Shown here piece after piece: positions 1 to 32,973 of a stretch of DNA of 64,000 bases. The notes under the pieces were generated by a model, which was not told where the DNA came from, made no database searches, and saw only the letters and a program-made list of their open reading frames with translations. The stretch's first letter is position 1. The number at the start of each line of letters is the position of its first letter. The position numbers and the translations under genes were made by a program. Source of the DNA: a virus; the IMG/VR virus record IMGVR_UViG_3300037156_000148, positions 1 through 64,000 of that record; one strand, written 5' to 3'.

Positions 1-1741
1 GCTCTCGTGCCACTGCGCGGGGCTTATGCGTTACCGCATCCAGTGCGTGTACGGTTTTCCATACATATGCCATACCTAAGTCAATATTTTTTACGGTATA
101 GTTTAAGAGGTCATCCAAGACTTCGACAAAAACTTCATTCTCCCATGTCTTATTAAATTCCGCTATGGCAACCTCTATCGCTTTCGCTACTGCCGCAGGA
201 GATGGCTTTATGCCGAATCTATTTTTAACCTTACTGAATGTGCCTACTTCGTCAAGGATTGTCGGACACCGATACAAGAACTTCATAGCTCCGTGATTGA
301 TGTGATAATTGAATATATCCTCGTCAGTATGCTCTATCAGGTTCATGGCGTTCCAGTACCTTTCTGCCTTGATACATTCTTGGAAAAATTCATCTTTATC
401 ATCAGGTCTGTCCACCATGATAGCTATGGTCATGCCGCCCAACTCTCCCATGCCCTGCCAAGGTCGGCGTACTATGATAGCACCCTTTGACATCTTCGCA
501 GATTTCTCGACATCCTGCAATCGGTATGAATCGGTTGCTATGAGATCGGGTGATAGTAGGTTTGGTTTTGGATGCCTAAATATTTTCCACTTGCCTTTTT
601 TATTGAGTCTGAATTTTACCTCACCACTTCCTATGTCATAGTATAAGTCGCCTTGCTGTATCTGATCGGTTATGGTCTTGTCTGTCTCAATACGGGATTT
701 TTGTGTCTCTATCTTCTCCGCACTGAAAGGACTGGAATTTATGGCCATGAGCATTTCCTCTATCGTAGTCGGGTAGTTCTGTTGATAGATCATCAGTTCT
801 TCGCCGTCTAATCCCTTGCCCTTTTCCTTTACATCAAGTAGTGCCGCTTCTTCATCGCTTTGCCCTGTCTCTAAATTCACGAAACCCCAATATGCTTTTT
901 GGGCAGGGACGAAGATGAACTTAAATCCCATTTCTTCGTGCTTGCGTGTGAGCCTGCGAAAGTCAGCGTACCCACCTGCGTTCACCGCATTGGATGTACC
1001 GCCGCATATATGGATACCAAATTTCTTGGCTCCCTCACGCATAGCTGCCTGATTGGTGCGCACAAGATTCAATGGTGCATCTATTTCACCAAATTCATCT
1101 ATGAAGATGGTCTTATACCTACCGCCCTTTGCTACGTCAGCATCCACAGATTTAAGTGTCACAAGTGTTGTCTGTATGCCGATCTCATTACCATTACCAT
1201 CTACCCGACCATATATTTTTATGGACTTGTCATCTTTTATACCAGGGAAGTGCTTGAAGTCCGGCAATAGGTGTTTCCATGCCAAATTATATTTTTCCTT
1301 ATAGATGTCTATCGCTTTGTTTTCGCCCGTTGGAAACAGCAAAAGTGTTTTCCTATTTGCAACAAGCATACAGTTAAACAGGCTGCAATGGGTTTCAATA
1401 TCCGTAAATCCCTTGTCCCGCGCCTTGGCTATAAAGAGATCATCGCCAGTCCTGTAGCACTCTTCAATAGAATCAAATATTTCTCTGTGGGCATCTACAT
1501 AGTAAGGACTTGCAGGTTGCTTGTCGCCACTCTTATCGGTTATGAGTATCGTGCCAAAGTTCAACATGAAGTAGTGCATACCTGTGATCCTGTCACCGCC
1601 TGCTTCATATCCTTTTAAAAAATAATTTTCCTGTTCGGCTATCCACTGCCCCCACGCCTCACTTTCGGGATCATAGTCGGGTATGCCTCCCTTTTTTACA
1701 GGGGAGAATTTACCGTAATAATCTGTGGAGGTGTAACTCAT
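1..1741 (-). CDS. terL: Terminase large subunit (3' end beyond window)
   Basis: This is the packaging motor ATPase/nuclease. The frame is open from an ATG at 1741 to the window edge, about 580 codons, so the C-terminus is missing. The N-terminal ATPase shows an atypical Walker A region (IAKARDKGFTD, about residue 110) and a clear Walker B with catalytic acid (KTIFIDEFGEID, about residue 210). A later stretch, GGMTIAMVDRPDDKDE, fits the start of the RNase H-like nuclease domain. The start overlaps the upstream stop as ATGA. Gene order and the Walker B motif make TerL very likely. The Walker A lysine lies in an ARDKG context, as in other headful-type terminases. This is seen in the sequence; no alignment was run. 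Confidence 0.85.
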   Translation of the reverse strand, partial: MSYTSTDYYGKFSPVKKGGIPDYDPESEAWGQWIAEQENYFLKGYEAGGDRITGMHYFMLNFGTILITDKSGDKQPASPYYVDAHREIFDSIEECYRTGDDLFIAKARDKGFTDIETHCSLFNCMLVANRKTLLLFPTGENKAIDIYKEKYNLAWKHLLPDFKHFPGIKDDKSIKIYGRVDGNGNEIGIQTTLVTLKSVDADVAKGGRYKTIFIDEFGEIDAPLNLVRTNQAAMREGAKKFGIHICGGTSNAVNAGGYADFRRLTRKHEEMGFKFIFVPAQKAYWGFVNLETGQSDEEAALLDVKEKGKGLDGEELMIYQQNYPTTIEEMLMAINSSPFSAEKIETQKSRIETDKTITDQIQQGDLYYDIGSGEVKFRLNKKGKWKIFRHPKPNLLSPDLIATDSYRLQDVEKSAKMSKGAIIVRRPWQGMGELGGMTIAIMVDRPDDKDEFFQECIKAERYWNAMNLIEHTDEDIFNYHINHGAMKFLYRCPTILDEVGTFSKVKNRFGIKPSPAAVAKAIEVAIAEFNKTWENEVFVEVLDDLLNYTVKNIDLGMAYVWKTVHALDAVTHKPRAVARE

Positions 1742-2349
1742 TTTTTCGTGGAGGTGCGCTGTATGACCCTGAACTCCCCACGTGTCAAAGGTGTTTCTCC
1801 TTTGATTTTAATCTTGACATCTGCCACATCCTTCTTTTGAATGTCTTTCATGGCTATGTCGTTTTTTATCATGTCCGGCAATTCCTTGATGGACTTTATC
1901 ATTTCTGAAATTGACATGTCTCCCTTTTCGGTTTCGATTCCCTTTTCTCCAACCTTCAATCCACCTGTCACTATATCGTGTAGGTCACTGATTGCCTGAT
2001 ACACCATTTCCCTTGACTTGGTTATATTCTGGGCGGTAGGTGTATTGCACCAGTCGGTGTACACATCCATAGCATCCCGAATAGCTTTGACCTTATAGAA
2101 TTTCTCCCTATCTGAATCGCTGTCATCCCTCTTTACGGCTCGATACGCCTCTTTTAATATCCTGTCCTCTTTCCCATTGAATGCCTCCCTGACGGGGCTT
2201 AGTGGATCACAGGCGTAGGCTATGATTGCTATCGCGTCAACGCCTTGGTTGTCTTTTTGCAGGACGGCGCGTAGTTCGGGCATACAGTTAGCTACATTTT
2301 CATCAATGGCTATCTTTTTGCCTTTCTCGAAGGTTACATCTATCAGCAT
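1738..2349 (-). CDS. Unknown protein upstream of TerL (possible small terminase)
   Basis: This 203-residue protein has an acidic N-terminus and a helical middle, ending in a lysine-rich tail (TSTKK). It overlaps TerL by 4 bp (ATGA), so the two are translationally coupled. Position and size would suit a small terminase subunit. No helix-turn-helix motif is obvious, so that role is only inferred from context. Confidence 0.6.
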   Translation of the reverse strand: MLIDVTFEKGKKIAIDENVANCMPELRAVLQKDNQGVDAIAIIAYACDPLSPVREAFNGKEDRILKEAYRAVKRDDSDSDREKFYKVKAIRDAMDVYTDWCNTPTAQNITKSREMVYQAISDLHDIVTGGLKVGEKGIETEKGDMSISEMIKSIKELPDMIKNDIAMKDIQKKDVADVKIKIKGETPLTRGEFRVIQRTSTKK

Positions 2350-2350
2350 C

Positions 2351-2527
2351 TTACAATCCTTTATTTAATGCAAAATGGTTCACCCATGGCTTCGGCTCTT
2401 TAGCTTCCTCCCTTATAATCCTGCTTTCAGAGTGCGCGGTTATGCGCCCCTGATGCTTATGACCCACAGGTGGAGGCTTTTTACCCTTCACCGACTTATG
2501 CTTGCTTTGACTGCCTTTCTTCCGCAT
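2351..2527 (-). CDS. Small basic protein, probably leaderless
   Basis: This 58-residue protein is rich in Lys, Arg and His (starts MRKKGSQSKHKSVKGKKPPP). Its stop lies 1 nt before the start of the 203-aa gene, so it opens the terL transcript. The start codon lies exactly 4 nt after a TACCTTTG box (2532-2539), implying a leaderless message. Function is unknown; the charge suggests nucleic-acid binding. Confidence 0.6.
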   Translation of the reverse strand: MRKKGSQSKHKSVKGKKPPPVGHKHQGRITAHSESRIIREEAKEPKPWVNHFALNKGL

Positions 2528-2531
2528 GTCA

Positions 2532-2539
2532 CAAAGGTA
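2532..2539 (-). promoter_or_regulatory. Bacteroidetes -7 box TACCTTTG before the terL operon
   Basis: An exact TAnnTTTG match on the minus strand, followed by 4 nt and ATG (2527). No good TTTG is seen at 19 nt upstream. Confidence 0.5.
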
Positions 2540-2551
2540 TTAATTTTTGGG

Positions 2552-2582
2552 CAAAAAAATAACCCCACCCGTGAGGGCAGGG
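2552..2582 (-). terminator. Rho-independent terminator
   Basis: An 8-bp GC-rich stem (2563-2570 with 2575-2582) with loop GTGA is followed on the minus strand by TTATTTTTTT. It ends the 2613-3227 gene before the terL promoter. Confidence 0.75.
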
Positions 2583-2612
2583 CTAACCTAAATAAACAAT
2601 GAAACCCGATCT

Positions 2613-3227
2613 TTAGTATGATGGATACGGTGCTGCCGTGACGAACTTGACATGCCGTGCATATTGTTTGCCATGACCGTTATTCACAAGGTCATCAGCA
2701 TTTACTTGTATCACCCTTGGCTGTAAGTTAGTTTTGACCGACACATGCACAATGAAACTATCCAAGCCTGAAATGCCCGGTCTATACATACTGTCTGCCT
2801 TGATAGTTTGCGCCGATGTGAAAATATTTGATGTCAGCTTAGTCACTATATAGTTCCCATTGACAGCGTATAGATATTGAGGCTGAGAGATTCTATATGT
2901 GGACAGGGTATCGAGTGTTGCTTCATCGGCATACAGTTGATAGTAGTTTGATACGAACTGCACATCAGCAGCATATGTGTTCACGCTTGGGCTGTATGTC
3001 GTTATCCCTACTATGGTGTAGGCTGCGGAGTCCGGCACATTCACCAGTTGATAGTTTGCGGTAGGAACAAGTCCCTGCGCGAAGCTCATAAAAGAAAGCG
3101 ACATGAGCAGTCCTATGAGGATTGTTGTCATCGTGCCTTTTGGCCCTGCCTTACCTGCCGTTTTTTTGTTTACACCTTTTCTTGGTGATGTAACTTTCTT
3201 TTTGGGAGTTGTCTTAGTTTTGCTCAT
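2613..3227 (-). CDS. Putative secreted or membrane-anchored protein
   Basis: This 204-residue protein has a strongly basic N-terminus (about 32 residues, many Lys/Thr/Pro). A hydrophobic stretch (MTTILIGLLMSLSFMSFAQG) follows and ends like a Bacteroidetes signal-peptidase I site (FAQ/G). The rest is beta-rich and polar (SAAYTIVGITTYSPSV). It resembles the signal-peptide-bearing genes at 36.5-41 kb. It could be a secreted or surface-exposed phage protein; no family was recognised. The internal Met before the hydrophobic stretch is an alternative start. Confidence 0.6.
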   Translation of the reverse strand: MSKTKTTPKKKVTSPRKGVNKKTAGKAGPKGTMTTILIGLLMSLSFMSFAQGLVPTANYQLVNVPDSAAYTIVGITTYSPSVNTYAADVQFVSNYYQLYADEATLDTLSTYRISQPQYLYAVNGNYIVTKLTSNIFTSAQTIKADSMYRPGISGLDSFIVHVSVKTNLQPRVIQVNADDLVNNGHGKQYARHVKFVTAAPYPSY

Positions 3228-3270
3228 GGCGTGTTATTTTTGCTGTAAAGATAATAATTTTTGATAAAAA

Positions 3271-3567
3271 CTAATCCTGTGTCACTTTTTTAATTACCTG
3301 ATGTTTCACAAGGTAGTCAATAAGAGTGTTCACATCCATCTTCACATTGATAAATTCCTTCTGTCCCTTTCGCATGACCGACAATCCTGGTATGTCTTTG
3401 CGAGTGTTTCTGTTATAGAACGCCCTGATACCGTAGCCTTGTAGTTGTTCTTTGGTGAAATACTCCTTTCTGGAGGATATTAATTTCACCTGATATTCCG
3501 TTTCGGTGTCATCCGGCACATCCTTGATCGAGAATACGGGGATCTCTATTTGTGTAGTTTCTCCCAT
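3271..3567 (-). CDS. Hypothetical protein, 98 aa
   Basis: The protein starts MGETTQIEIPVFSIKDVPDD and is mixed charged with no membrane segment. Its ATG overlaps the stop of the upstream gene (TAATG at 3567), so the two form an operon. Not recognised. Confidence 0.6.
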   Translation of the reverse strand: MGETTQIEIPVFSIKDVPDDTETEYQVKLISSRKEYFTKEQLQGYGIRAFYNRNTRKDIPGLSVMRKGQKEFINVKMDVNTLIDYLVKHQVIKKVTQD

Positions 3568-4256
3568 TATTCTTGGATAAAGTATTTGTAAATCACGTCC
3601 TCTACGAATACAGGGTCTATGATGGACTGATCGGCGTACACCGTTACATAGTGCAGTCCCTCGGCAGATTTGGCACCCAGTTCGTATGTTTTGATCTCAT
3701 ACTTGGTATTGCTGAATTGCTCCTGTAAATCGGTACACTTGGTCACAAACTCAGCGCGGAGTGCTTCGTCTTTCAGTTCCGGCTTGAATGCGCCACGAAA
3801 TTCTTTTGGTATGTCATGACCTGTGTAGACCGATACAAACCGAACCTTGCCGTCTTTTGCTGTGGTAAACTTCGCTTTGTCGGGAACTTGCTGCCCGTCT
3901 ACTTCGGTGAGCAGGGTCAATACCTTTCCTGATTGCGGATCTGTCTTTACTTCGGGGTGTCCATCCTGTATGTACAGTTCTTCGCCATTGTTTGCTTCGG
4001 GATAGAAAGCCCTTGCCTCACCGAGCATCTTCTCACGGGAGTCTTTATCGTGTGCTTCCAATACTTTTTTGAAGTTGGCGGTGTTCTTTGAGAACCACCT
4101 TTGAGTAGTCTGATTCACTACTGGGTTATGATATGACATAGCATTTAGCCATTGCCAAATCTCATATAGTCCCTTTACCGTAAATGATTCTGTCCTCTCC
4201 ACGAATTGAATCGCTTTGCCAATTGTTCTCGGCACCTTTCCGCTTGCTCCTTTCAT
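3567..4256 (-). CDS. Hypothetical protein, 229 aa
   Basis: I chose the ATG at 4256 (MKGASGKVPRTIGKAIQF) over an upstream TTG at 4283. The N-terminal half is helical (GLYEIWQWLNAMSYHNP) and the C-terminal half is beta-rich (VRFVSVYTGHDI, GLHYVTVYADQS). It is not recognised, and is first in a three-gene unit ending at the 2.55-kb terminator. Confidence 0.65.
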   Translation of the reverse strand: MKGASGKVPRTIGKAIQFVERTESFTVKGLYEIWQWLNAMSYHNPVVNQTTQRWFSKNTANFKKVLEAHDKDSREKMLGEARAFYPEANNGEELYIQDGHPEVKTDPQSGKVLTLLTEVDGQQVPDKAKFTTAKDGKVRFVSVYTGHDIPKEFRGAFKPELKDEALRAEFVTKCTDLQEQFSNTKYEIKTYELGAKSAEGLHYVTVYADQSIIDPVFVEDVIYKYFIQE

Positions 4257-4597
4257 TCTAAGTGTGTTTTTGTTTGAGTGCAAATAAATAGCATTTAATT
4301 AACAATACCAAAAATATTTATTCCGAGAAAGGTTTGAGAACGGAAGGTAAGCAAAGGTGTTGTACCCCTACCCCAAAGGAAGTACAACAAAAATGCTACC
4401 AATAAATTATTCGTCGAATAGGAATTGAATCGTGTGGCTGTCGGAGGAAAGTGTTACGTCCATGCCCGACATTTAAAAGCAAAATAAAATATCGGGAGTT
4501 GCCTACCTTATGCTATGCCTTCATTCCCCTACGAGCGTGTTAAGGGGCAGAAAAGAAGATTTCAGTCGCTACGAAGTATTGCTGATGTCATGAAATA
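4257..4597. other. Non-coding, hairpin-rich region
   Basis: No ORF is credible here. The region holds an 8-bp perfect inverted repeat TGTTGTAC/GTACAACA (4358-4365 and 4382-4389). It also holds a 5-bp TTCCG/CGGAA pair (4321-4325/4341-4345) and further short stems. It lies between a tRNA terminator and the 4256 gene, so it probably contains that gene's promoter and possibly an untranslated RNA. Confidence 0.4.
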
Positions 4598-4623
4598 AAA
4601 AACCCACTGGTAGGGGCAGTGGG
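4593..4623 (-). terminator. Terminator downstream of the tRNA
   Basis: A perfect 7-bp stem CCCACTG/CAGTGGG (4603-4609 with 4617-4623) is followed on the minus strand by TTTTTTATTT. It ends the HU-like/tRNA transcript. Confidence 0.75.
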
Positions 4624-4728
4624 CGGGTTACGAGGTTATCAATTTGACTTCCTAATAACAAACCCGAAACATACATCCCTACAATGGATATTTCGGATCA
4701 TCTATAATTCCTCGGTCTTCCGACCTAG

Positions 4729-5139: not shown

Positions 5140-5442
5140 TTATTTACCCACTACTCTATCACATGTGGGTTCTGCTACTGATTTCCCAACTATGGAATCT
5201 AAGTGGCTAATGTAAATATAAAGCCCGTCCAAACTTTCATTTTGCATCTGCATAAGTACGTCTAAGTAGTCAGATAGGTTTTGGGGGCTTTTAATTTCCG
5301 GCGCACATTGATTTTCACATTTCTTGGGTTCGGGTCTATTGGATATTGCTATCAGCATATTGCTGAGTGAAGCAAGCCTTTCATTGATTCTGGCCTGAGT
5401 TTCTATTGCATACTCAATTTTGTCTGCGATTGATTTTGACAT
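5140..5442 (-). CDS. Hypothetical protein, 100 aa
   Basis: Helical, polar protein (MSKSIADKIEYAIETQARIN), with Cys residues CENQCAPE in the middle. If the cassette at 5471-8071 and one 8-bp duplication are removed, its ATG falls about 20 nt after the stop of the winged-helix gene, making a normal operon. Function unknown. Confidence 0.6.
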   Translation of the reverse strand: MSKSIADKIEYAIETQARINERLASLSNMLIAISNRPEPKKCENQCAPEIKSPQNLSDYLDVLMQMQNESLDGLYIYISHLDSIVGKSVAEPTCDRVVGK

Positions 5443-5470
5443 TGTTTTATTTTTTAGTTAATATAATTTA

Positions 5471-5494
5471 GGCAATGATATATTTTAGTGTACC
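5471..5494 (+). repeat. Terminal inverted repeat, left end of R-M-S cassette
   Basis: Starts GGCAATGATATATTTTAGTG; matches the right end at 8048-8071 over most positions, with the first 15 identical. Confidence 0.8.
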
Positions 5495-5504
5495 TTAATT
5501 TTCA

Positions 5505-5669
5505 CTAATGTGTTTGTCCACTATCTTTTTTCAAGTGATTGAATGAACTTGGAGCTTTAGCCATTCGCTTTAAAGCCTTATCAAAGTTTATCTTGCCTCC
5601 AGTATCATACTTAGCTATAAGTTCCTTATCGGATAGTCCTTTCGGGCGTGGATGTGGTTTAGATTTCAT
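5505..5669 (-). CDS. Small cassette protein, 54 aa
   Basis: Starts MKSKPHPRPKGLSDKELI and is basic overall. It begins 4 nt after the stop of the R-M-S gene and lies inside the cassette, so it is probably co-transcribed cargo. It might be an RM accessory or control peptide; nothing specific is recognised. Confidence 0.5.
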   Translation of the reverse strand: MKSKPHPRPKGLSDKELIAKYDTGGKINFDKALKRMAKAPSSFNHLKKDSGQTH

Positions 5670-5672
5670 AAA

Positions 5673-7955
5673 TCAATTAAAAGCTTTTGATATAATAACA
5701 CTGTCTTTCTTATCTTCTAACTTCCCCTTTAAGGCTATTGCAGATTGACGTTCTCTTTCTATTTTATCCAGTTCGGTGACAATTGATTTTATTTTCGCTC
5801 GATCAAAAGGAATGTCCAAATCTTCAACCGTATCTTTATTTAAAGTATCTCCTTTTGTAGCCCTGTTTGTGCTATAATCAATCTTCGGTAATATATAATA
5901 CAGATATTTCTTTATGGTTTCATCTTCAACTATTAGCCCCGCAATTGCTTCATTTGTATATAATGGTTTTTCGGTAATAGCAACCTTCCCTATTGATAAC
6001 TTAAAGCTAAAAAGCAACGTACCTTTGGGTAAAAGCTTTTGTGGTTTTATTGCCAAATCTGTAATTTTCTCTTCCGAATCTGATATATACATATCGTCTC
6101 CGATGTCACTGATAGACACCCATACATTTTTCCCTCCAAACCAATACGAATCATCATCACGGGGAGGCGTGAACCCCATTATAATACGATTGTCTTTTAA
6201 TAGGGATTTTAGTTTGACGGTTTTCACTATACTGTCTTTCTTGATATAGTTATTCATCGACAATTTGTATTCATTAGCCGTTATTGTTTTTAAGTCAACA
6301 AAGAAGGAGTTGCCGCCTTTTTTTTCCTTCCATATTTGGCGCAATAATATCAAATCATCAAGTTCGATTTTTCTTCTCCCCTTAATGCTCCCTGTTTTCT
6401 TAAATCCATCTTCATTAACATCAAAAAACCAAACCTTTTTAGTCGTTTCTCCTTTGTGGAAAATTAAAATACTTGTAGGTTGCCCCGTGTAAGGCTTAAA
6501 CACAGAACTGTGCAATCTGATAACAGCCTCTACATTTGTATGTTCAAGTAATAGTTTACGTATCCTTATATGCTCTTTGGTGCTTTCGAATAATACACCT
6601 TCTGGAACTACAACAGCGCACCTCCCTTTGTCATTTAAACTATCATAAATATGTTTTAGAAAAACAATATTGGCATCAGTTGTAGTGAAATCATAAAATG
6701 CCCCAAAATCTGTTTTTTGAGAGAAAGCATAGTTGCTTAAAACAACATCATACTCCCCTTTTACTGGAAATTCTAAAGAGTCTTTTTGCTCAACATTATT
6801 ATGCCCATCGCCGATAATAATCATGTTCATTTTAGCTACCTTAGAAGTAGTAGAAATTTCTCTGCCAAATACCGTATTGTTCTCTAGTATCTCTAAATTC
6901 TCTTTAGTGTTTTTGCACTTATTTTTTATGTTCTTGAAGGCTTCAATTAAAAATCCCCCTGTCCCGCAACAGGGATCGTATATAGTTTCATTAAATTTAA
7001 GGTCTAAAAGCTCCACCATTAACTTAACAATGTGTCTTGGGGTAAAGTATTCACCCAAGTCATTACCTACGCTTATTGAGTTCTTTAAGAAGTACTCAAA
7101 GGCATCTCCCTTTATATCTGAATTGGTATCTAGCAAATTGCCAATTTTGGATATTTTATCTACAATTTCCTTTAGATTTTCGGCCTTATTGATAAGTAGC
7201 TTTTTATTGAAAATATCGCTCGTGTGATTATATTCTTTATCGAATCTTGGTAAAACTATTGAATTGATATATGTCTGTAATTCTTTAGCGGGTTTATCAG
7301 CATAGGATTCCCAACAAAACATTGTTTCTAGCCTTCTTTTTTCGCCTCTCTCTTCACGTTGCTTTTCAATATCACTAATCAGTTTTAAGAATAGGAGATT
7401 TGAAAATTCCGTGAAGCGTTCTTTGCCTTCGCTTAGTCCATCCTTTCTTAATATATCATTTGCCTCTTGAAATATCCTTATTAACTCTAATTTAGAATGT
7501 ACAACTTTCTTTTCGCTAAATATTTTGCTGCCACCATCAATGAATAACTTTACCCTTTTTTCAGAAAGAAAATCCGTTACTACCTCTGAATTGTAATATA
7601 AATAGTCATTCTCGATAACGTGATATGATTGAATGAACAATCCATCTGTTATGAATACAATTTTCACTCCTAATGGAGTAGCGTATTTTGCGATTGTTTC
7701 TCTTAATGTTTTTTCTAAATCCTTTCCAGGCCTTTTTGCTTCAATTATAGCAATTGGGTTTTTATCAGATGATGAGTATAAAACATAGTCTGGCTTATTT
7801 CCCTTAAACTTTTTGTTTTCAGCCACCGTTCTTGCTCTTTCCGTATAGCAGTTACAGTCTGGGCTACTTTCATCAATATTCCATCCAAGATTAACAAGCC
7901 AGTTATTGATCTTGATTCGCGTAGAACTTTCTAAGGGATTGGTGAACTTTTTCAT
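5673..7955 (-). CDS. Single-chain restriction-modification enzyme (R-M-S fusion, type I/IIG-like)
   Basis: This 760-residue protein carries three activities. Residues about 1-170 form an HsdR-N-like PD-(D/E)xK nuclease (KPDYVLY ... AIIEAKRPG). Residues about 180-560 form an N6-adenine methyltransferase with SAM motif I DPCCGTGGF and an HsdM-like N-terminal helical domain. Residues about 580-750 hold one target-recognition domain and a terminal helical spacer (ELDKIERERQSAIALKGKLE). Motif IV, expected as NPPF/NPPY or NIPF, reads SNYAFSQKTDFG, so the catalytic loop is altered. The order R-M-S in one chain fits type IIG or solitary type I-like systems. A TATCTTTG promoter box with an inverted repeat precedes it. 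Confidence 0.8.
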   Translation of the reverse strand: MKKFTNPLESSTRIKINNWLVNLGWNIDESSPDCNCYTERARTVAENKKFKGNKPDYVLYSSSDKNPIAIIEAKRPGKDLEKTLRETIAKYATPLGVKIVFITDGLFIQSYHVIENDYLYYNSEVVTDFLSEKRVKLFIDGGSKIFSEKKVVHSKLELIRIFQEANDILRKDGLSEGKERFTEFSNLLFLKLISDIEKQREERGEKRRLETMFCWESYADKPAKELQTYINSIVLPRFDKEYNHTSDIFNKKLLINKAENLKEIVDKISKIGNLLDTNSDIKGDAFEYFLKNSISVGNDLGEYFTPRHIVKLMVELLDLKFNETIYDPCCGTGGFLIEAFKNIKNKCKNTKENLEILENNTVFGREISTTSKVAKMNMIIIGDGHNNVEQKDSLEFPVKGEYDVVLSNYAFSQKTDFGAFYDFTTTDANIVFLKHIYDSLNDKGRCAVVVPEGVLFESTKEHIRIRKLLLEHTNVEAVIRLHSSVFKPYTGQPTSILIFHKGETTKKVWFFDVNEDGFKKTGSIKGRRKIELDDLILLRQIWKEKKGGNSFFVDLKTITANEYKLSMNNYIKKDSIVKTVKLKSLLKDNRIIMGFTPPRDDDSYWFGGKNVWVSISDIGDDMYISDSEEKITDLAIKPQKLLPKGTLLFSFKLSIGKVAITEKPLYTNEAIAGLIVEDETIKKYLYYILPKIDYSTNRATKGDTLNKDTVEDLDIPFDRAKIKSIVTELDKIERERQSAIALKGKLEDKKDSVIISKAFN

Positions 7956-7997
7956 TTTTACCTATGCTATCGGTGTCATTGCTCTTTAATTATAGAA

Positions 7998-8035
7998 CAA
8001 AGATACCTGCGCACTACGCAATGAACTTACGTAGT
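7998..8035 (-). promoter_or_regulatory. Promoter and operator-like inverted repeat for the R-M-S gene
   Basis: TATCTTTG (7998-8005, minus) is a -7 box. Just upstream lies the inverted repeat ACTACG-N11-CGTAGT (8013-8018/8030-8035), placed where a repressor or control protein could bind. Confidence 0.5.
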
Positions 8036-8047
8036 AAAATAAAATCT

Positions 8048-8071
8048 TGTACATCCAAATATATCATTGCC
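8048..8071 (-). repeat. Terminal inverted repeat, right end of R-M-S cassette
   Basis: Read on the minus strand: GGCAATGATATATTTGGATG then TACA. Outside it lies the second ataattta copy. Confidence 0.8.
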
Positions 8072-8076
8072 ATAAT

Positions 8077-8796
8077 TTATAACCATTTATTTTCAGCTAA
8101 CCGTTTGTCTTCTTCTTTCTTCCCTGCTTTGATTTTCTTCAAAGCCTCCTCACGCTTGATATTATCGCGTTGCTGTTCATTATACCGCTCCTGTACTTGA
8201 AGGGATAGCTTTTTTAATTCCTCCCCCTGTTCTAAAAGAGCCTCAACATAACCTAAAGGTATATCAATTCCAGTCTCTAGTATGCTCTTCATTGATGGCT
8301 TGGCATCATCGAACCTATATACTAGCGTCACCTCTACCCTGTCGGATTTATCAATTTGACGCTGATGGAACAGCACCTTATCATTCAGTTTGTACAACCC
8401 GTTCTTTATCTTGATTATTAATCCCTTACGAGCAACCAGTCTGCCAAATAGCTGTGATACCGTACCTCTCGTCAATCCTGATGCCTTAGAAACGTGGCTA
8501 ACACTATCATTCGTCCATACAAATTGAGATTTATACTTATATAGGCTTGTCAGTGCTAAAAGTATTAATATTTGCCCATCACTTAACCCAAACGCTTCTC
8601 GTATGTTTTTAAGGTGGACAAACAAAAAATCCATCCTGTCTATGCCCTTAACCATCCTGCCCCTTTGTACGGTACTTGTTAAATCTTCTCTGTCCGTATT
8701 ATCTTGTACCTCTGGTGTGAAATTCCAATCCACCCGCTTACGAGACTGTTCAGATGTTTTTAATCTCTTTTTTATTTTATCATTTTCGTATGCCAT
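8077..8796 (-). CDS. Winged-helix DNA-binding protein
   Basis: This 239-residue protein has a MarR/replication-initiator-like winged helix at about residues 70-140 (DGQILILLALTSLYKYKSQFVWTNDSVSHVSK, then TRGTVSQLFGRLVARKGLIIKIKNGLYKLN). A long charged C-terminal helix follows (EELKKLSLQVQERYNEQQRDNIKREEALKK). Role as regulator or replication initiator cannot be decided. Its TAA stop overlaps the right target duplication of the RM cassette. The promoter is divergent from the 8876 gene. Confidence 0.65.
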   Translation of the reverse strand: MAYENDKIKKRLKTSEQSRKRVDWNFTPEVQDNTDREDLTSTVQRGRMVKGIDRMDFLFVHLKNIREAFGLSDGQILILLALTSLYKYKSQFVWTNDSVSHVSKASGLTRGTVSQLFGRLVARKGLIIKIKNGLYKLNDKVLFHQRQIDKSDRVEVTLVYRFDDAKPSMKSILETGIDIPLGYVEALLEQGEELKKLSLQVQERYNEQQRDNIKREEALKKIKAGKKEEDKRLAENKWL

Positions 8797-9708: not shown

Positions 9709-9731
9709 GGCAATGATATATCAATTTACAC
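9709..9731 (+). repeat. Solo IS1595-type terminal repeat
   Basis: GGCAATGATATATCAATTTA then CAC, 21 of 23 positions as in the 12913 end. No partner with matching 8-bp flank (aataaata) is visible, so it may be a remnant of an earlier insertion. Confidence 0.6.
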
Positions 9732-9791
9732 TAGATAACTTATTAAAATAATCATACATTAGCTTTATTATTAAACCATAAATTATATATC

Positions 9792-12236: not shown

Positions 12237-12260
12237 GGTAATGATATACAAATTTACACC
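12237..12260 (+). repeat. Degenerate solo IS1595-type terminal repeat
   Basis: GGTAATGATATACAAATTTA then CACC; related to the 9709 and 12913 ends but more diverged. Left 8-bp flank ttaattca has no partner. Confidence 0.55.
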
Positions 12261-12270
12261 GAATGCCTGA

Positions 12271-12296
12271 AATAAAAAGCCCTACTGTTAGTAGGG
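12271..12296 (-). terminator. Terminator after the P63C-like fragment
   Basis: Stem CCCTACT/AGTAGGG (12280-12286 with 12290-12296), then CTTTTTATTT on the minus strand. Confidence 0.7.
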
Positions 12297-12466
12297 ACTT
12301 CGATACTCGATTATCTAAAATCTATTCTCTTTGTCTTTAATACTAGCAGTAGGACTGCAATAATTATTACCGTTGTCATCGCTGATTTGGGTTTTATTAT
12401 TTTCAATAGCAAGCAAGCCTTTCGGGTTGTCCATTGCATTGTAAATATATTAAAATCTGTCGGTTA

Positions 12467-12912
12467 TTATTTGTTCTTCTTTTTAGAACTCGTTCCCTTA
12501 TTAGCTTTCTTGGGTTTCGCATCAGGGTCAACATCCTTATTCTTTGGTGGTTTTGGCACATCAAGCATTCCCTTTAGTAGCGTATCAAAGGGCTTTTCTT
12601 CTTTTGGAGTATCTTCTTTTTTGACCTCTTTAACTTCTTTGTCAGGCTCTATATCATTTACCGTTAGTTCAAGTTGACCATGTTTCCGCTGGTTCATTTT
12701 ATTGAAATTCTCTAAAAACTGTTTCCAGTTATCTGAGAAACGCATGATAGCTATAACCTGATTTAGTTGCGCCGACAAGTGCGGGTTGCCTGTATCGGGT
12801 GTTAGGCTCTGAAAAAAACGCGCTGTATAATTACCAGCTTTGCTTTTCGGGGTTTTCTTCTTTAATTCCTCAAGAACACCTTTTGGTAATTGCCGATATA
12901 TAACATTGTTTG
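12467..12912 (-). pseudogene. P63C-domain protein, 5'-truncated
   Basis: The minus frame is open from the edge of the repeat at 12913. It reads NNVIYRQLPKGVLEELKKKT ... ARFFQSLTPDTGNPHLSAQL then NQVIAIMRFSDNWKQFLENF. This matches the pattern of the P63C domain (LPPGVLEEL, LT.D.GHP.L, VI.LMR.S.NW..F). A Lys/Glu/Pro-rich tail follows. No start codon survives, because the left end of the 12913-17049 element replaces the upstream part. The N-terminal portion is not found beyond 17049. Confidence 0.6.
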
Positions 12913-12936
12913 GGCAATGATATATTTATTTACACC
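12913..12936 (+). repeat. Terminal inverted repeat, left end of the 4.1-kb element
   Basis: Begins GGCAATGATATATTTATTTA; 23 of 23 positions identical to the right end at 17027-17049 in inverse orientation. Confidence 0.85.
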
Positions 12937-13027
12937 TCAGTCCAGTAAAAATACCATAAATTCTTGGGTGGGGATAAAATGTTAATCAAATAAATTCGTT
13001 TCTATTTCCCGTTTCCTACTTTTAAAG

Positions 13028-14248
13028 ATGCTAAGAAATACAGCCGAATATGATGTGCTCACAAATGAAGAAAGGAGCATTACGATTTATAAGGAAAACA
13101 ACACCCCAACCGATTCTTCAAAAGTAACAGCCAAAACACCCCTTTCTGAATTGAATCTAAATTGGTCAGAAAAGGATTTGCCAGAAAGAAATAGAACAAA
13201 GCACGTTCACAGGCTACACCCGTATTTGGGAAAATATATTCCTCAACTTGTTGAAATATTTTTGAGGAAATACTTTAAACCAGGTCAAACAGTCCTTGAC
13301 CCGTTTAGCGGTTCAGGAACAACGCTTGTTCAGGCCCAGGAGCTTGGCATCAACAGTGTGGGCTTTGACATTTCAGAATTCAATGTAAAATTAGGAGAGG
13401 TAAAAACAGCGGATTATAATATTCCTCTTTTAAAAACAGAAATAGCGGATATACTTAAACAAATGGAGGGTAATTTGTTTTCCGGTAATGTCGATGTAGA
13501 CAAACTGGTAAAAGAAAGCAACGATTATTTGCGCCAATGGTTTGCGCCAGAAGCGCTTCGGCAGCTACTTCTGTTTAGACATTTATTAGAAAACTATACA
13601 TATAAAGACCTTTATAGAATTATCTTATCCCGATCAGCCAGATCGTCAAGATTAGTTACTCATTTCGATTTAGACTTCCCAAAAAAGCCCCAAATAGACC
13701 CATACCACTGTTATAAGCATTCGAGAATGTGTCAGCCCACAACCGAGTCTATTCAATTTTTAATAAGGTACTCATTAGACACAGTAAAACGAATTGAAGA
13801 ATTTTCAAAACTAAAAACTAAAGCTACCGTATCGGTTCGGCATGTTGATAGTAGATACGGTGATCCGGGGCAAGTGGACGGAATAATTACATCTCCCCCT
13901 TATGTGGGATTGATTGACTATCACGAACAACATACATATGCCTATAATTTATTGGGGTTAAAAGATAATTCAGAAAGCGAAATAGGGCCTGCCAAAAAAG
14001 GGTCAAGTATAAAAGCAAAAGAGGACTATAAAGCAGCTATGGCCCAAGTTTTCCTAAATACAAGTAAGCATGTAAAGGAGAAAGGGAAAATAATTGTTGT
14101 AGCTGGTGATAGAAATAATCTATATCCTGAAATTGGAGAAAGAGCAAATCTTCGATTAGATGCTAAAGTTGAAAGGCATGTTAATAGAAGAACAGGAAGA
14201 CGCTCTACTCCATTTTTTGAAACGGTTTTTATCTTCACCAAAAAATAA
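13028..14248 (+). CDS. Beta-class DNA methyltransferase (N4-C or N6-A)
   Basis: This 406-residue protein has motif I (LDPFSGSGTTLVQAQELG) at about residue 95. It has motif IV as TSPPYVGLIDYHEQH at about residue 295. The SPPY form is typical of N4-cytosine methyltransferases and some N6-adenine enzymes. The N-terminal segment RLHPYLGKYIPQLVEIFLRKYF resembles the front of type II modification enzymes of this class. The restriction partner follows after 12 nt, so this is a type II RM operon. Confidence 0.8.
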   Translation: MLRNTAEYDVLTNEERSITIYKENNTPTDSSKVTAKTPLSELNLNWSEKDLPERNRTKHVHRLHPYLGKYIPQLVEIFLRKYFKPGQTVLDPFSGSGTTLVQAQELGINSVGFDISEFNVKLGEVKTADYNIPLLKTEIADILKQMEGNLFSGNVDVDKLVKESNDYLRQWFAPEALRQLLLFRHLLENYTYKDLYRIILSRSARSSRLVTHFDLDFPKKPQIDPYHCYKHSRMCQPTTESIQFLIRYSLDTVKRIEEFSKLKTKATVSVRHVDSRYGDPGQVDGIITSPPYVGLIDYHEQHTYAYNLLGLKDNSESEIGPAKKGSSIKAKEDYKAAMAQVFLNTSKHVKEKGKIIVVAGDRNNLYPEIGERANLRLDAKVERHVNRRTGRRSTPFFETVFIFTKK

Positions 14249-14260
14249 TTCTCTCTTTAA

Positions 14261-15091
14261 ATGGCTAACGAAAATGTTGCTGAAGGGATAAAACTGGTTG
14301 TTCAAACTATGATGGACAGGGTTATGAATAACGTCCTTAATGTAGACCCCTTTCTGCCGGACGTACACAAAGCGAATAAACCATTATACGCTGCTCTTGT
14401 CCCTGATGAAATATTTAAAGGTTCTCATTTTGAAAGAAGGTTTGTTACTCCCTTTGGTGGTGTTTGGGAAAAACTTGCCAAAGTAGTGGCCACAGAAGCA
14501 TTAGGTAAATGTGAATTAGGTTTTATGATTCACGGGAATGTAGGCATGGAAAGGCTTAGAAGGATAAGCGAGGTTTTAAATAACCTTGAACATTCAACAA
14601 AAGGAAAAGATAGAATACATCCTGAATGGGAAAGGGAACTTAACTATATTTTAGAGGGCGGTGGAGAAATGATACCCGTTCATGTTATATGTGATGTGTA
14701 TGTGGAAGATGTGAAGAACAATTTGAAATACTCTTTTGAGCTAAAAGCACCTTTGCCAAATAGCGATCAAACCAAAGTAAGCAAAGAGAAGATTTTCAAG
14801 TTATATGCAATGGAGCCACGAATTATTAACGAGGCGTATTATGCTCTGCCATATAATCCATACGGTAAAAGAGAAAATTATGAGTGGTCTTTCCCGGCCA
14901 GGTGGTTCAATATGAAAAAAGACCCGTCCGTATTGATAGGGGATGAATTTTGGGATAAAATTGGCGGGAATGGAACCTATCAACTGTTTATCTCTGAGAT
15001 CAACAAATTAGGGTTGGACTACCGAGAAAGAATTTATAGAGAGTATTTAGGAATTGAACCGCCAGAGGGATTTGATGATATAAAAATATAG
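14261..15091 (+). CDS. TdeIII-like type II restriction endonuclease
   Basis: This 276-residue protein has a PD-(D/E)xK core: Asp in VICDVYVEDVKNN, then SFELKAPLPNSDQTKVSKEK. Together these are characteristic of the TdeIII family, whose prototype cuts GGNCC. Length and placement next to a methyltransferase agree. The recognition sequence of this copy is inferred only from the family name. Confidence 0.7.
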   Translation: MANENVAEGIKLVVQTMMDRVMNNVLNVDPFLPDVHKANKPLYAALVPDEIFKGSHFERRFVTPFGGVWEKLAKVVATEALGKCELGFMIHGNVGMERLRRISEVLNNLEHSTKGKDRIHPEWERELNYILEGGGEMIPVHVICDVYVEDVKNNLKYSFELKAPLPNSDQTKVSKEKIFKLYAMEPRIINEAYYALPYNPYGKRENYEWSFPARWFNMKKDPSVLIGDEFWDKIGGNGTYQLFISEINKLGLDYRERIYREYLGIEPPEGFDDIKI

Positions 15092-15096
15092 ATCAA

Positions 15097-16044
15097 TCAT
15101 TGTTTATCTTTTCTGGGTGGTGGTGTGTTTAATAGTATTGTCAACTTTTGGTCGAAGGTAGGTTCATTTTTTTTTTGATTGCTTTGATAGTCTACAAAAG
15201 TAGAGTGCGTTTCTTTCTTTAATGTTTTAATAGTATCAAGTGAATCCAATGTTTTCCTTTGGTCTACAACAGTCTCTCGAAGAATTTTAAAACGTTCTTT
15301 TTTAGGTAATCCATTTTTTATCAAAATAGAATTTAAACTCTCTAAATTAGACAAGATAGCTAATTCATTTATGCTTGCCATATCTCTTAAATTCTCACCG
15401 TTTAAGGCCCTATCTGGATATGTTTCTCTCCATCGTTTAGCGGTAATACCAAATAAGGCAATATTCAAAAGGTCAACTTCATCAGCGTACAATAACCATT
15501 CTTTCGCCTGAGTATATCCCGCTTTGGGAACGATATAATTTTTCACAGCCTCAGTATGGATGTAATGATTTGCTTTACTAAGTATTCTTTTTACATTCCA
15601 CTCTAACCCGTATTGATTGCTTTCTATCTCTTTAAGACGCTGGTACTCTTTAACGATGTATAGCTTAAATATAGGGCTTATGGCTGCCCCAAATTCAAAT
15701 GCTATATCTTTGTGGGCATAAGTGCCGCCTGTTTTCCCCAATTTTGAATAAATACCTATTGCTTTCGTGGCTTCAACCCAAGTGCTTACGCTCATTGTAA
15801 ATGTCGGTAAACCAGCCTCTTTTCTAAAGTGGTCAAATTCGACCACTTTAAAATTCGGGTTATAAATAGTCTCCCAAGTACCTAAAAACTCAATAGTCCC
15901 CCTCCCCCTTATCCAGTTTTTAATTACATCTGCCGCCCGTGCATCTGCTCCTTTTGCCTTTACCATATCCGTAAGGCAGATAAAATCATTTTCAATATTT
16001 ATCTCTGTACCTTGTACAACTATTTTAGTTAATTTACTGTTCAT
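15097..16044 (-). CDS. KilA-N domain protein
   Basis: This 315-residue protein has an N-terminal KilA-N-like DNA-binding region at about residues 5-145 (ICLTDMVKAKG, VIKNWIRGRGTIEFLGTWE, VSTWVEATKAIGIYSKLGKT then GGTYAHKDIAFEFGAAISP). A helical C-terminal half of unknown role follows. It starts 11 nt inside the transposase 3' end, so the two share a transcript. As element cargo it could regulate the RM genes or the transposase (inference). Confidence 0.7.
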   Translation of the reverse strand: MNSKLTKIVVQGTEINIENDFICLTDMVKAKGADARAADVIKNWIRGRGTIEFLGTWETIYNPNFKVVEFDHFRKEAGLPTFTMSVSTWVEATKAIGIYSKLGKTGGTYAHKDIAFEFGAAISPIFKLYIVKEYQRLKEIESNQYGLEWNVKRILSKANHYIHTEAVKNYIVPKAGYTQAKEWLLYADEVDLLNIALFGITAKRWRETYPDRALNGENLRDMASINELAILSNLESLNSILIKNGLPKKERFKILRETVVDQRKTLDSLDTIKTLKKETHSTFVDYQSNQKKNEPTFDQKLTILLNTPPPRKDKQ

Positions 16045-16960
16045 TATTCTTGCTTATTAGGGTTTCGTAAGTCAATCTTTTGTCGTTCGCATTAGCCAAA
16101 ACTACATTAAATCTGTCATTCGTGGTATTCTTACGAGTGTTATATCTTAGGGTGTATTCGGTCACGTATGAATTAAGATGCTCCATGCTAACGTGGTGGT
16201 AAATTCCGGTTACTCCCCTTTGAAGATGAGACCAGAAATTTTCAATTCCGTTCGTATGTACCATACCCCGTACAAACTCTTTAGCACTGTGATTGACTGA
16301 TTCGTGAAAGTGTTTTTTATCTAAACCATTATAAGCATTGTATTGATCTGTCATAAGGATAGCCATTTCAGGTATTGTATTGTTTATGACAGGTAGAATA
16401 TGTTTTTTCTCAACGGTAGGGACGGCCTGAGCAACAACTTTGCCCCCGCGCTCCATCATACCCAATACAGGGGCTTTGGTGCTTATAGTGCCTCCACGTT
16501 CGTTTTTTACTTTCTTATTCTCATGTTTGTTCTTAGCCTCTCCACCGACAAAGGTTTCGTCTATTTCTATAATCCCGCTAAGATGTATATTCCCTTCTCC
16601 AAAAGCATGGCGCAAACGGTGTAAGATGAACCAGGCTGTTTTCTGTGTTACTGTGATGTCTTTAGCCAACTGGTGAGAACTGATACCCTTCTTATGCGAA
16701 CTGAAAATATACAGAGCTAAGAACCATTTTTGTAAGGGTATGCGGGTACAATCAAATATTGAATTAGTACGAACATTAAAATACTTTCCTGTATTTTTGC
16801 ATCTGTATTTATTCCCCGCACACGCATACACTTTAGATGTAGGGTCAAGGGGACTAACTACATTGCCATGCCAGCGCAATTCCGTCAAGTGGTCTATGCA
16901 AGATTGTTCGTCAGGAAAGGCTTTAAGCAGGTCAATGATTGATTTGAATTCTGTGAGCAT
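16034..16960 (-). CDS. IS1595-family (ISXO2-like) transposase
   Basis: This 308-residue full-length transposase has the expected order. First comes an N-terminal region with a partly degraded zinc ribbon (first Cys pair replaced by SPLD; YRCKNTGKYF retained). Then come the wHTH-like block GISSHQLAKDITVTQKTAWF, catalytic IDETFVGG, LMTDQYNAYNG, and HTNGIENFWSHLQRGV. The D, D and N/E positions are intact, so it may be active. It is the only complete transposase in the window and the natural source for mobilising the RM cassettes. Confidence 0.9.
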   Translation of the reverse strand: MLTEFKSIIDLLKAFPDEQSCIDHLTELRWHGNVVSPLDPTSKVYACAGNKYRCKNTGKYFNVRTNSIFDCTRIPLQKWFLALYIFSSHKKGISSHQLAKDITVTQKTAWFILHRLRHAFGEGNIHLSGIIEIDETFVGGEAKNKHENKKVKNERGGTISTKAPVLGMMERGGKVVAQAVPTVEKKHILPVINNTIPEMAILMTDQYNAYNGLDKKHFHESVNHSAKEFVRGMVHTNGIENFWSHLQRGVTGIYHHVSMEHLNSYVTEYTLRYNTRKNTTNDRFNVVLANANDKRLTYETLISKNNEQ

Positions 16961-17026
16961 ATATTTGAATTATGGTGTAAATATATGCCTAACTTTTGAG
17001 AACACCAAACTTATCTCAATCTTTCT

Positions 17027-17049
17027 GTGTAAATAAATATATCATTGCC
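17027..17049 (-). repeat. Terminal inverted repeat, right end of the 4.1-kb element
   Basis: Identical over 23 positions to 12913-12935 in inverse orientation. It also supplies the TGA stop of the 65-aa gene outside (CGG CAA TGA). Confidence 0.85.
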
Positions 17050-18834: not shown

Positions 18835-18906
18835 GGCAACTATATACTTATTACACCCAAATGGGTTTTGTTATTAAAATAAGGTGACTATATACTTATC
18901 TAACCC
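18835..18906 (+). repeat. Two tandem diverged IS1595-type ends
   Basis: Copy A from 18835 reads GGCAACTATATACTTATTAC; copy B from 18883 reads GGTGACTATATACTTATCTA. Similarity continues past the ends (ACCCAA then TTTAAAA), as a roughly 48-bp diverged tandem unit. Both resemble GGCAATGATATATTTATTTA from the larger elements. Confidence 0.6.
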
Positions 18907-18915
18907 AATTCGAGT

Positions 18916-19332
18916 TTATGGTTTAAAAATTACTATCATTGAGTCAAGCGGATTGCCATTACCCATCTTCGTCCTTTTACCTGATTCATCGAGTTTTTCA
19001 AATGATATCCTACCTTTCACAAATCTTATCTCCGAGGCATTGGGTTTAATATGCTCATGAAATAGCTTTGTACTCGTGGAAACAGGGATTAACAGTACTG
19101 ATGTCCTGCCTTTTTTCTTTTCATCTATCGCCTTGAGTATAAACGCCTTCTTTAATTCGGGCGAATAAGGGGGATTAACAAAATTACATTGCCCCCACTC
19201 TATTTTTAGTCCATCATTTACTATTTCGCCTTCGCAGTATGGGCATGGATCTAAATCAAAATTGAATTCCGCGTGTAGTGGCTCGTAAACCGATAAGGGA
19301 GTAAGCCAGTTGTCATTTTCTTTTCTTTTCAT
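18916..19332 (-). CDS. Phage Dam-like DNA N6-adenine methyltransferase
   Basis: This 138-residue protein starts MKRKENDNWLTPLSVYEPLH, then FDLDPCPY and FVNPPYSPELKKAFILKA. The WxTP front, DPCP and NPPYS (motif IV, catalytic) are the hallmarks of the short phage adenine-methyltransferase family. It probably modifies phage DNA against host restriction. The gene starts about 18 nt inside the right-hand repeat and lies just downstream of dnaB. Confidence 0.8.
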   Translation of the reverse strand: MKRKENDNWLTPLSVYEPLHAEFNFDLDPCPYCEGEIVNDGLKIEWGQCNFVNPPYSPELKKAFILKAIDEKKKGRTSVLLIPVSTSTKLFHEHIKPNASEIRFVKGRISFEKLDESGKRTKMGNGNPLDSMIVIFKP

Positions 19333-19349
19333 TGTATCTTTTATTGTTC

Positions 19350-19373
19350 AGGTTGAATAAGTATATAGTTGCC
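19350..19373 (-). repeat. IS1595-type end upstream of the methyltransferase
   Basis: Read on minus: GGCAACTATATACTTATTCA then ACCT; about 20 of 24 positions agree with copy B. It lies between the dnaB stop and the methyltransferase start. Confidence 0.6.
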
Positions 19374-22999: not shown

Positions 23000-24004
23000 A
23001 TGAGAAAGATCAAAGGATTTAAAGGATTCGACAAAGACCTGAAATGCAAAGATGTCCAATTTGAAGTGGGCAAAGAATTTTCAATACCCGACGAAATGCC
23101 TATCAAAATATGCGCATCGGGATTCCACCTCTGCAAAAATCCACTTGATATTTTCCGATATTATAAAGCGGGTAGTAGCAGATTTGCAGAGGTCGAAGGT
23201 GACGGCGATGAAAAAATACATGAAGATGACAGTAAAATAGCCGTTAGGCGCATATTTATCAAGGCTGAAATCAAAATTGATGACATAATCAAAGGCGGTA
23301 TTAAGTTCATTTTTGAGAAAATAAAAGAGATAAAGCCCGAACAATATGCATCAGGTAACTCTTCGACAGGCGCGGCATCAGGTAACTATTCGACAGGCGC
23401 GGCATCAGGTAACTCTTCGACAGGCGCGGCATCAGGTTACTCTTCGACAGGCGCGGCATCAGGTAACTATTCGACAGGCGCGGCATCAGGTTACTATTCG
23501 ACAGGCGCGGCATCAGGTAACTCTTCGACAGGCGCGGCATCAGGTAACTATTCGACAGGCGCGGCATCAGGTGAATCTTCGACAGGCGCGGCATCAGGTA
23601 ACTCTTCGACAGGCGCGGCATCAGGTTACTCTTCGACAGGCGCGGCATCAGGTGAATCTTCGACAGGCGCGGCATCAGGTTACTATTCGACAGGCGCGGC
23701 ATCAGGTGAATCTTCGACAGGCGCGGCATCAGGTAACTCTTCGACAGGCGCGGCATCAGGTTACTCTTCGACAGGCGCGGCATCAGGTAACTATTCGACA
23801 GCAATCGTAACAGGCAAAGATTCTATTGCGGTGGCTAATGGCAAAGACTCAAAAGCAAAGGGGGCTATCGGTTGCTATTTGGTTTTGAGTGAATATAAAG
23901 ACGGAAATCTAATAGACGTCAAATGCAAAAAAGTGGACGGCAAAAAGATTAAGGCTGATACTTTTTACACATTGCAGGACGGCAAATTTGTAGTTGTTAA
24001 ATAA
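23000..24004 (+). CDS. Hypervariable 9-residue-repeat phage protein
   Basis: This 334-residue protein has an N-terminal domain (GFKGFDKDLKCKDVQFEVGK, CASGFHLCKNPLDIFRYYKA, SRFAEVEGDGDEKI) of a type seen in front of repeat tails in other phages. Seventeen copies of SGxxSTGAA follow (residues about 116-270), where xx is NS, NY, YS, YY or ES. A diverged end then reads TGKDSIAVANGKDSKAKGAI, with a short C-terminal domain. The repeats could form a beta-solenoid or a flexible display arm. Function is unknown. Confidence 0.75.
   Translation: MRKIKGFKGFDKDLKCKDVQFEVGKEFSIPDEMPIKICASGFHLCKNPLDIFRYYKAGSSRFAEVEGDGDEKIHEDDSKIAVRRIFIKAEIKIDDIIKGGIKFIFEKIKEIKPEQYASGNSSTGAASGNYSTGAASGNSSTGAASGYSSTGAASGNYSTGAASGYYSTGAASGNSSTGAASGNYSTGAASGESSTGAASGNSSTGAASGYSSTGAASGESSTGAASGYYSTGAASGESSTGAASGNSSTGAASGYSSTGAASGNYSTAIVTGKDSIAVANGKDSKAKGAIGCYLVLSEYKDGNLIDVKCKKVDGKKIKADTFYTLQDGKFVVVK
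23347..23805 (+). repeat. 17-copy 27-bp coding tandem repeat
   Basis: The units are identical at the nucleotide level except for two adjacent codons: AAC, TAC or GAA, then TCT or TAT. Long open frames in other registers and on the minus strand here are by-products of the repeat. Confidence 0.9.
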
Positions 24005-32445: not shown

Positions 32446-32973
32446 ATGAAAGCATTCAAATCAATATTAGCATTTCAAAAGCACTTCGATACAGATGAAA
32501 AGTGCAGAGAGCATTTAGAGCTTAGCAGGTGGAACGGAACACCCGCTTGTCCTTTCTGTGGCTCTATAGGTGTTCATAGATTCCCTAATGGCAGGATATT
32601 TAAGTGCAGGGATTGCCGTAAAAAGTTCTCTGTAACAGTCGGCACTATGTATGAGAATACCAAAATACCGTTGACTAAATGGTTTTTGGCAACATATATT
32701 TTAACTAATCACAGCAAGGGTATATCTTCTTTGCAGTTAGCTTCATGGCTAGACGTAACTCAGAAAACAGCATGGTTTTTAAATCATAGAATACGCGAAA
32801 TGCTGACAGAGAAAAACCCAGCACTATTAGAAGGTACTGTAGAGATTGATGAAACTTATGTTGGTGGATCAGATAAGAACAGGCACCAGCACAAAAAGAA
32901 AGGTAAAGGCTCTAAGGCTATGTATGAATCAGAAAGGAAAGGCAAAAGCCAAAAAACTGATTATCTAAAATAA
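32446..32973 (+). pseudogene. Truncated IS1595-family transposase
   Basis: The first 160 or so residues are a transposase N-terminus: zinc ribbon (ACPFCGS ... FKCRDCRKKFS), helix-turn-helix (GISSLQLASWLDVTQKTAWF), and first catalytic IDETYVGG. After KGKSQKT the frame turns into unrelated sequence and stops; the second Asp and NGIEN motifs are missing. It is distinct from the 16-kb copy, which lacks the first ribbon Cys pair. Inactive on its own. Confidence 0.8.

Follow-up and report, generated by a model that had tools for sequence, protein, structure and literature searches.

The movement of restriction-modification (R-M) genes is known to be frequent, and the vehicle usually has to be guessed. 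R-M complexes have been described as composite transposons or as being flanked by target duplications, with IS elements aiding their movement (PMC3031569, citing Furuta et al. 2010). As outlined in that source, these complexes have either two flanking IS copies or long duplications of variable length. Among the closest described elements are also the transporter IS (tIS) of the IS1595 family, for example MTnSag1/tISSag10 and tISCpe8. According to PMC5704250 (citing Siguier et al. 2009), they are 1.7–2.0 kb long, are found in Firmicutes and carry a lincosamide-resistance gene with the transposase in cis. Their IS1595-family DDE transposase, their preference for AT-rich targets, which are duplicated, and the presence of a passenger gene (PMC5704250) are shared with the elements described here.

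The window analyzed is a stretch of 64,000 nucleotides (positions 1 to 64,000) from a 69,686-base IMG/VR virus record, IMGVR_UViG_3300037156_000148. The record is a Bacteroidota-type phage genome in which the portal protein and the major head protein have matches among PHROG families. It contains a 2601 bp element, here called element A (5471–8071), which is bounded by inward-facing ends that start with GGCAATGATATATTT. The end at 5471–5485 on the plus strand continues as TAGTGTAC, and that at 8057–8071 on the minus strand continues as GGATGTAC. The first 15 bp are exact on both sides, and the arms extended to 29 nt are 83% complementary. Directly outside the ends lies the target-site duplication ATAATTTA, with exact copies at 5463–5470 and 8072–8079 on the plus strand. 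The inward-facing ends and the perfect 8-bp duplication proposed in the initial annotation are therefore both confirmed. Among pairs within 6 kb, this is the only exact 15-bp inverted pair in the window with an exact 8-bp flanking duplication, and 60 Markov-simulated windows contained no such pair.

The 8-bp, AT-rich target duplication expected of IS1595 elements is thus present at A. The base composition of the element is 34% G+C compared with 43% for the left flank, and the record is a single IMG/VR virus contig, as would also be seen if A had been joined to the phage contig from another replicon during assembly. A join of this kind would leave no exact 8-bp duplication at exact inverted-repeat ends, and the same phage independently holds a second element with identical 15-bp ends, as explained below. 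An assembly chimera is consequently improbable in the extreme.

Element A is positioned between two phage genes on the minus strand. One encodes a 239-aa protein with a weak HTH_36 (winged-helix-like) match (8077–8796) and the other, on the opposite side, a 100-aa protein (5140–5442). The second copy of the duplication includes the stop codon of the upstream, 239-aa gene: when read on the minus strand, the duplication begins with this TAA as its first codon. This places the insertion just behind the stop so that nothing is interrupted, and both neighboring genes are intact, as had been claimed. Removal of the element and one duplication was also said to restore a tight arrangement of stop and start codons. 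It does so, with the TAA of the 239-aa gene followed by 25 nt, not about 20, and then by the ATG of the 100-aa gene. Their spacing and orientation suggest that the flanking genes form an operon. An empty site for A did not emerge when viral contigs, phage records and 395 Bacteroidia genomes were searched with the winged-helix gene, a 106-aa gene and the major capsid protein, because the flanking phage genes have no relatives in these collections.

The cargo of A consists of two genes on the minus strand, and other large genes are absent. The first is a 54-aa ORF (5505–5669) with no family match and no homologues in 295 Bacteroidia genomes. The second encodes a 760-aa R-M-S protein (5673–7955) with three domain parts: an HSDR_N-like stretch, an N6_Mtase domain (residues 279–575) and one Methylase_S domain (residues 578–717). 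The gene is complete, as initially proposed, and together with the small ORF it supplies the passenger that characterizes a transporter IS. With a length of 2601 bp and a 760-aa gene, A is not a short, non-coding element, and a MITE identity was rejected.

The R-M-S protein is Type IIG-like, as a nuclease, an N6-adenine methylase and a specificity domain are present in one chain that lacks a helicase domain. The nuclease motif, P55 D56 ... E72 x K74 (PD..ExK, here PD..EAK), is invariant in six aligned proteins. In the methyltransferase part, motif I (GTGG) is present and motif IV reads NYAF, while three closer relatives have N[IM]P[FY], and methylation activity is therefore not assured. As there is a single Methylase_S domain, a dimer would be expected to read the site. 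Over its R and M parts the protein aligns with proteins from an Acinetobacter phage, a Geobacillus plasmid and a faecal phage at 34–38% identity. In tblastn comparisons, enzymes of Acinetobacter phages and of a Geobacillus plasmid, which are likewise phage- or plasmid-borne single-chain R-M(-S) proteins with PD-ExK and N6 methylase parts, are approximately 36–41% identical to it. Close relatives at E<=1e-60 were absent from 395 Bacteroidia genomes. Assignment to the MADS methyltransferase MAD2 was rejected, since NF047738 gave 134 bits against a curated cut-off of 720.

Inside A there is no similarity to a transposase or to KilA-N, in agreement with the initial annotation, which had stated that no transposase is present. 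Without a transposase gene, A can only be a non-autonomous relative of the IS1595 family. The statement does not extend to the neighborhood, where an IS1595 transposase lies within identical 15-bp ends. The 15-bp end recurs at 12913 on the plus strand and at 17049 on the minus strand, and these two copies bound a second element, element B (12913–17049; ends GGCAATGATATATTTATTTACAC), which lies 5 kb from A and had been overlooked. B is an IS1595-type transporter with R-M cargo. Its plus-strand cargo genes encode an N4/N6 DNA methyltransferase (13028–14248; PF01555) and a TdeIII-type type II restriction endonuclease (14261–15091; PF09520, E=6e-67). On the minus strand are a KilA-N domain gene (15097–16044) and, overlapping it, the gene for an IS1595-family DDE transposase (16034–16960; NF033547 E=9e-61; PF12762), which is a candidate for the trans-acting mobilizer of A. 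DNA similarity between A and B is not convincing outside the 15-bp ends.

Matching 8-bp flanks are absent from B. On its left is the remnant of a further element (12237–12912), which comprises a family end at 12237 and a P63C gene (12467–12912, minus strand). This gene is cut mid-domain by the left end of B, so that profile positions 49–93 remain, and no P63C match was found on the right side of B. A deletion beside B would be a likely explanation for the missing duplication. A solo family end, GGCAATGATATATCAATTTACACTA, is located at 9709–9733 on the plus strand and its partner was not found. The ends at 9709 and 12237 (both plus strand), along with the P63C gene cut by B, indicate that the phage was colonized by the element family more than once.

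Three other features of the phage were noted. A Dam-type adenine methyltransferase gene (18916–19332) is located between perfect 18-bp inverted repeats, GGCAACTATATACTTATT (18835–19373), that resemble family ends. A third, direct copy is present at 18883 and there is no 8-bp duplication; the region is possibly another small cassette like those of the A/B family. A truncated IS1595-type transposase of 175 aa (32446–32973) retains the zinc ribbon and the start of the DDE domain and is 44–49% identical to three relatives of the B transposase, with no convincing inverted ends nearby. Finally, a 334-aa protein (23000–24004) contains many short tandem repeats of the SSTGAASG type.

The transposase of B was used as a query, which yielded 13 relatives in viral contigs and 199 in a genome collection containing one genome per species (84,980 species); 80 were kept. 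Elements were delimited by pairing GG...CC ends around the transposases, followed by a rescan with an end profile. This produced 63 delimited relatives of 2.0–5.9 kb, all flanked by 8 bp that are duplicated exactly. A+T makes up 90% of these duplications, of which 56 are distinct, and the majority base at each position gives TAAATTTA; that of locus L212 is identical to the ATAATTTA of A. One further candidate, at 525–4664 of locus L152, was rejected as a non-autonomous element because it has a transposase-like ORF of its own. The gene directly after the transposase is mostly P63C (21 of the 57 proteins scanned), KilA-N (13/57) or RhuM (8/57), and variable cargo comes next. In addition to R-M, this cargo is toxin-antitoxin-like or of unknown type, and the family as a whole is therefore not R-M-specific.

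The 15-mer shared by A and B is exact in only one of 118 other family ends, which makes its presence on all four ends of A and B notable. The assignment of A to IS1595, which had been a guess from sequence, is supported both by B, with its identical ends and its transposase, and by the 63 relatives. These relatives also bear on the proposal that the repeats are regulatory sites of the phage and that ordinary recombination between them brought in the R-M-S gene. End-like repeats without an intact element do exist, at 9709 and 12237 and around the Dam gene at 18835, 18883 and 19373, as this proposal would have it. The end at 12237, however, adjoins the truncated P63C gene, the usual partner of an IS1595-type transposase here. 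Furthermore, in 63 loci the family ends enclose transposase genes and are flanked by exact duplications, and such ends also coincide with real empty sites. Regulatory sites do not predict 8 bp duplicated exactly on the outer side of inward-facing ends; the duplication largely refutes them and makes this origin of A highly improbable.

The ends of A are not typical in every respect. Relative to the family consensus, GGYAAYKATATAY(N)3TTTACAC, the first 13 bases fit and bases 17–23 do not. Past base 15, the TAGTGTAC and GGATGTAC of A are unlike the family TTTACAC, and their scores are under 7, compared with 12 for the lowest-scoring family end. Ends of the A type, with TGTAC, were not found elsewhere. 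The bare 15-mer occurs in 118 stretches of viral contigs, each time as a single match that lacks a partner end, and these lone matches are read as chance.

In a tree of 57 transposases, that of B groups with L120, L121, L134, L136 and L137 (98/96 support). All six transposases of this clade are on elements with DNA methyltransferase or R-M cargo of several kinds. A C5 methyltransferase occurs in L120, alongside an unassigned 247-aa protein, and in L134, where it is paired with an Eco47II endonuclease. In L121, a methyltransferase is followed in the same chain by an Mrr-like domain. L136 has a type II methyltransferase and endonuclease (PADLOC models), and L137 encodes an N6 methylase and, separately, an S protein. 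B and the two members closest to it by path, L120 and L121, lie in viral records, that of L120 also encoding a terminase large subunit and GroEL and that of L121 a primase/helicase. It is conceivable, if somewhat doubtful, that a distinct IS1595-type lineage in phages and Bacteroidota carries R-M cargo and yields transposase-less R-M cassettes that colonize phages. If true, this lineage would be a general route of R-M systems into phages.

Further support for R-M genes as transposed passengers, which had been proposed for A, came from streptococci, where such elements occur with and without a transposase and real empty sites exist. The end pattern was present at 18 places in 58 Streptococcus genomes, and the reversed control gave 0. 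An element of 4960 bp in S. gordonii (L198) has an IS1595 transposase aboard and encodes a 756-aa R-M-S protein homologous to the enzyme of A, with N6_Mtase and Methylase_S domains in the same order and place. A near-copy of this protein in L209 is 26% identical to the A enzyme over 405 aa. When the flanks of L198 are joined, they match four other streptococcal genomes gaplessly across the junction, with one target copy. The L250 element, from another Streptococcus genome, is 99.6% identical to L198, and its flanks are dissimilar and its duplication different. Near-identical 5-kb R-M-S transposons at unrelated sites are a sign of recent transfer. In L192, L196, L198, L205, L209, L211, L250, L251 and L252, the place of P63C/KilA-N after the transposase is taken by three small genes (about 150, 95 and 182 aa); of these, the one at 7908–8366 of L198 has no Pfam match.

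A streptococcal element without a transposase was also found. L253 is 2742 bp long and has inverted ends, the exact duplication ATATTTTA and a single, 767-aa gene. Its alignment to an L192-type element is broken by a 2.25-kb gap where the transposase module would be, and from this alignment it looks like a tnp-deleted derivative of such an element. Its joined site has a continuous match in seven other genomes, two of which are correctly aligned with one target copy. No family matched the 767-aa protein significantly, and a type IIG label for the L253/L192 protein was dropped because family searches gave nothing. By eye, the motifs GAFYTP, DRCAGTG and NPPY can be seen, which suggest an adenine methyltransferase, and the protein is for this reason termed a putative R-M protein only. 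Like A, L253 has one large gene with methyltransferase motifs that lies between inverted ends and is flanked by an exact duplication; unlike that of A, its empty site is found in relatives. The two enzymes are not demonstrably homologous, and the L192 relative gives a weak motif match to that of A.

L253 bears on how A lost, or never had, a transposase. If A had arrived as a complete, autonomous IS1595 transporter and its transposase module had been lost after insertion, it would be a fossil with the same duplication that is seen now. The missing module of L253, which may have been lost before or after insertion, is compatible with such a course, and the divergent ends of A are as expected of an ageing copy. 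Against this, A contains no remnant of a transposase or of KilA-N, its two ends still agree with each other and with those of B at all 15 bp, and its duplication is unmutated. Loss of the transposase in situ is thus unlikely. There is instead good reason to regard A as a non-autonomous IS1595-type transporter cassette, which was probably moved in trans by the transposase of B or of a relative.

In the proposed mechanism, two short inverted ends would bracket the single-chain R-M-S gene and the small ORF, and the 15-bp GGCAATGATATATTT that they share with B would be recognized in trans by an IS1595-family transposase, most simply that of B or of a close relative. The cassette would then insert at an AT-rich site right behind a phage stop codon, so that 8 bp are duplicated and neither neighboring gene is damaged. 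Here, the transposase of B is presumed to act on the ends of A and the R-M-S enzyme to be active. The enzyme may help the phage by restricting competing DNA, or it may be hard to lose.

Collectively, these results show that A and B belong to a class of restriction-ferrying transposons that is widespread and poorly documented. The vehicle can be seen here: its ends are defined, its duplications have a fixed length of 8 bp, its transposase family has a name, empty sites exist in relatives, and there are autonomous as well as transposase-less forms. The ends provide a practical search handle for mobile R-M systems that are missed by gene-neighborhood annotation, and the phage case makes the step from transposon to phage directly testable. 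Searches of the open-licence literature found no account of R-M as a regular cargo in the IS1595 family, of the P63C/KilA-N/RhuM partner gene, or of a transposase-less R-M cassette of the A type in a phage; the founding paper of the family (Siguier et al. 2009) may hold a precedent.

Within this class, A resembles the elements of the B clade and of the oral streptococci (L120, L121, L134, L136, L137, L198, L250 and L251) in its GG-starting ends with an ATATA core, its 8-bp duplication, which is mostly AT-rich in these elements, and its R-M cargo. It differs in that these elements carry a transposase and have TTTACAC at bases 17–23 of their ends. Relative to MTnSag1/tISSag10 and tISCpe8, the cargo here is R-M, A is without a transposase, the host replicon is a phage, and the relatives have a P63C, KilA-N or RhuM gene beside the transposase. 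In contrast to R-M complexes in composite transposons, the gene of A lies between the bare inverted ends of one IS1595-type unit and is flanked by an 8-bp duplication.
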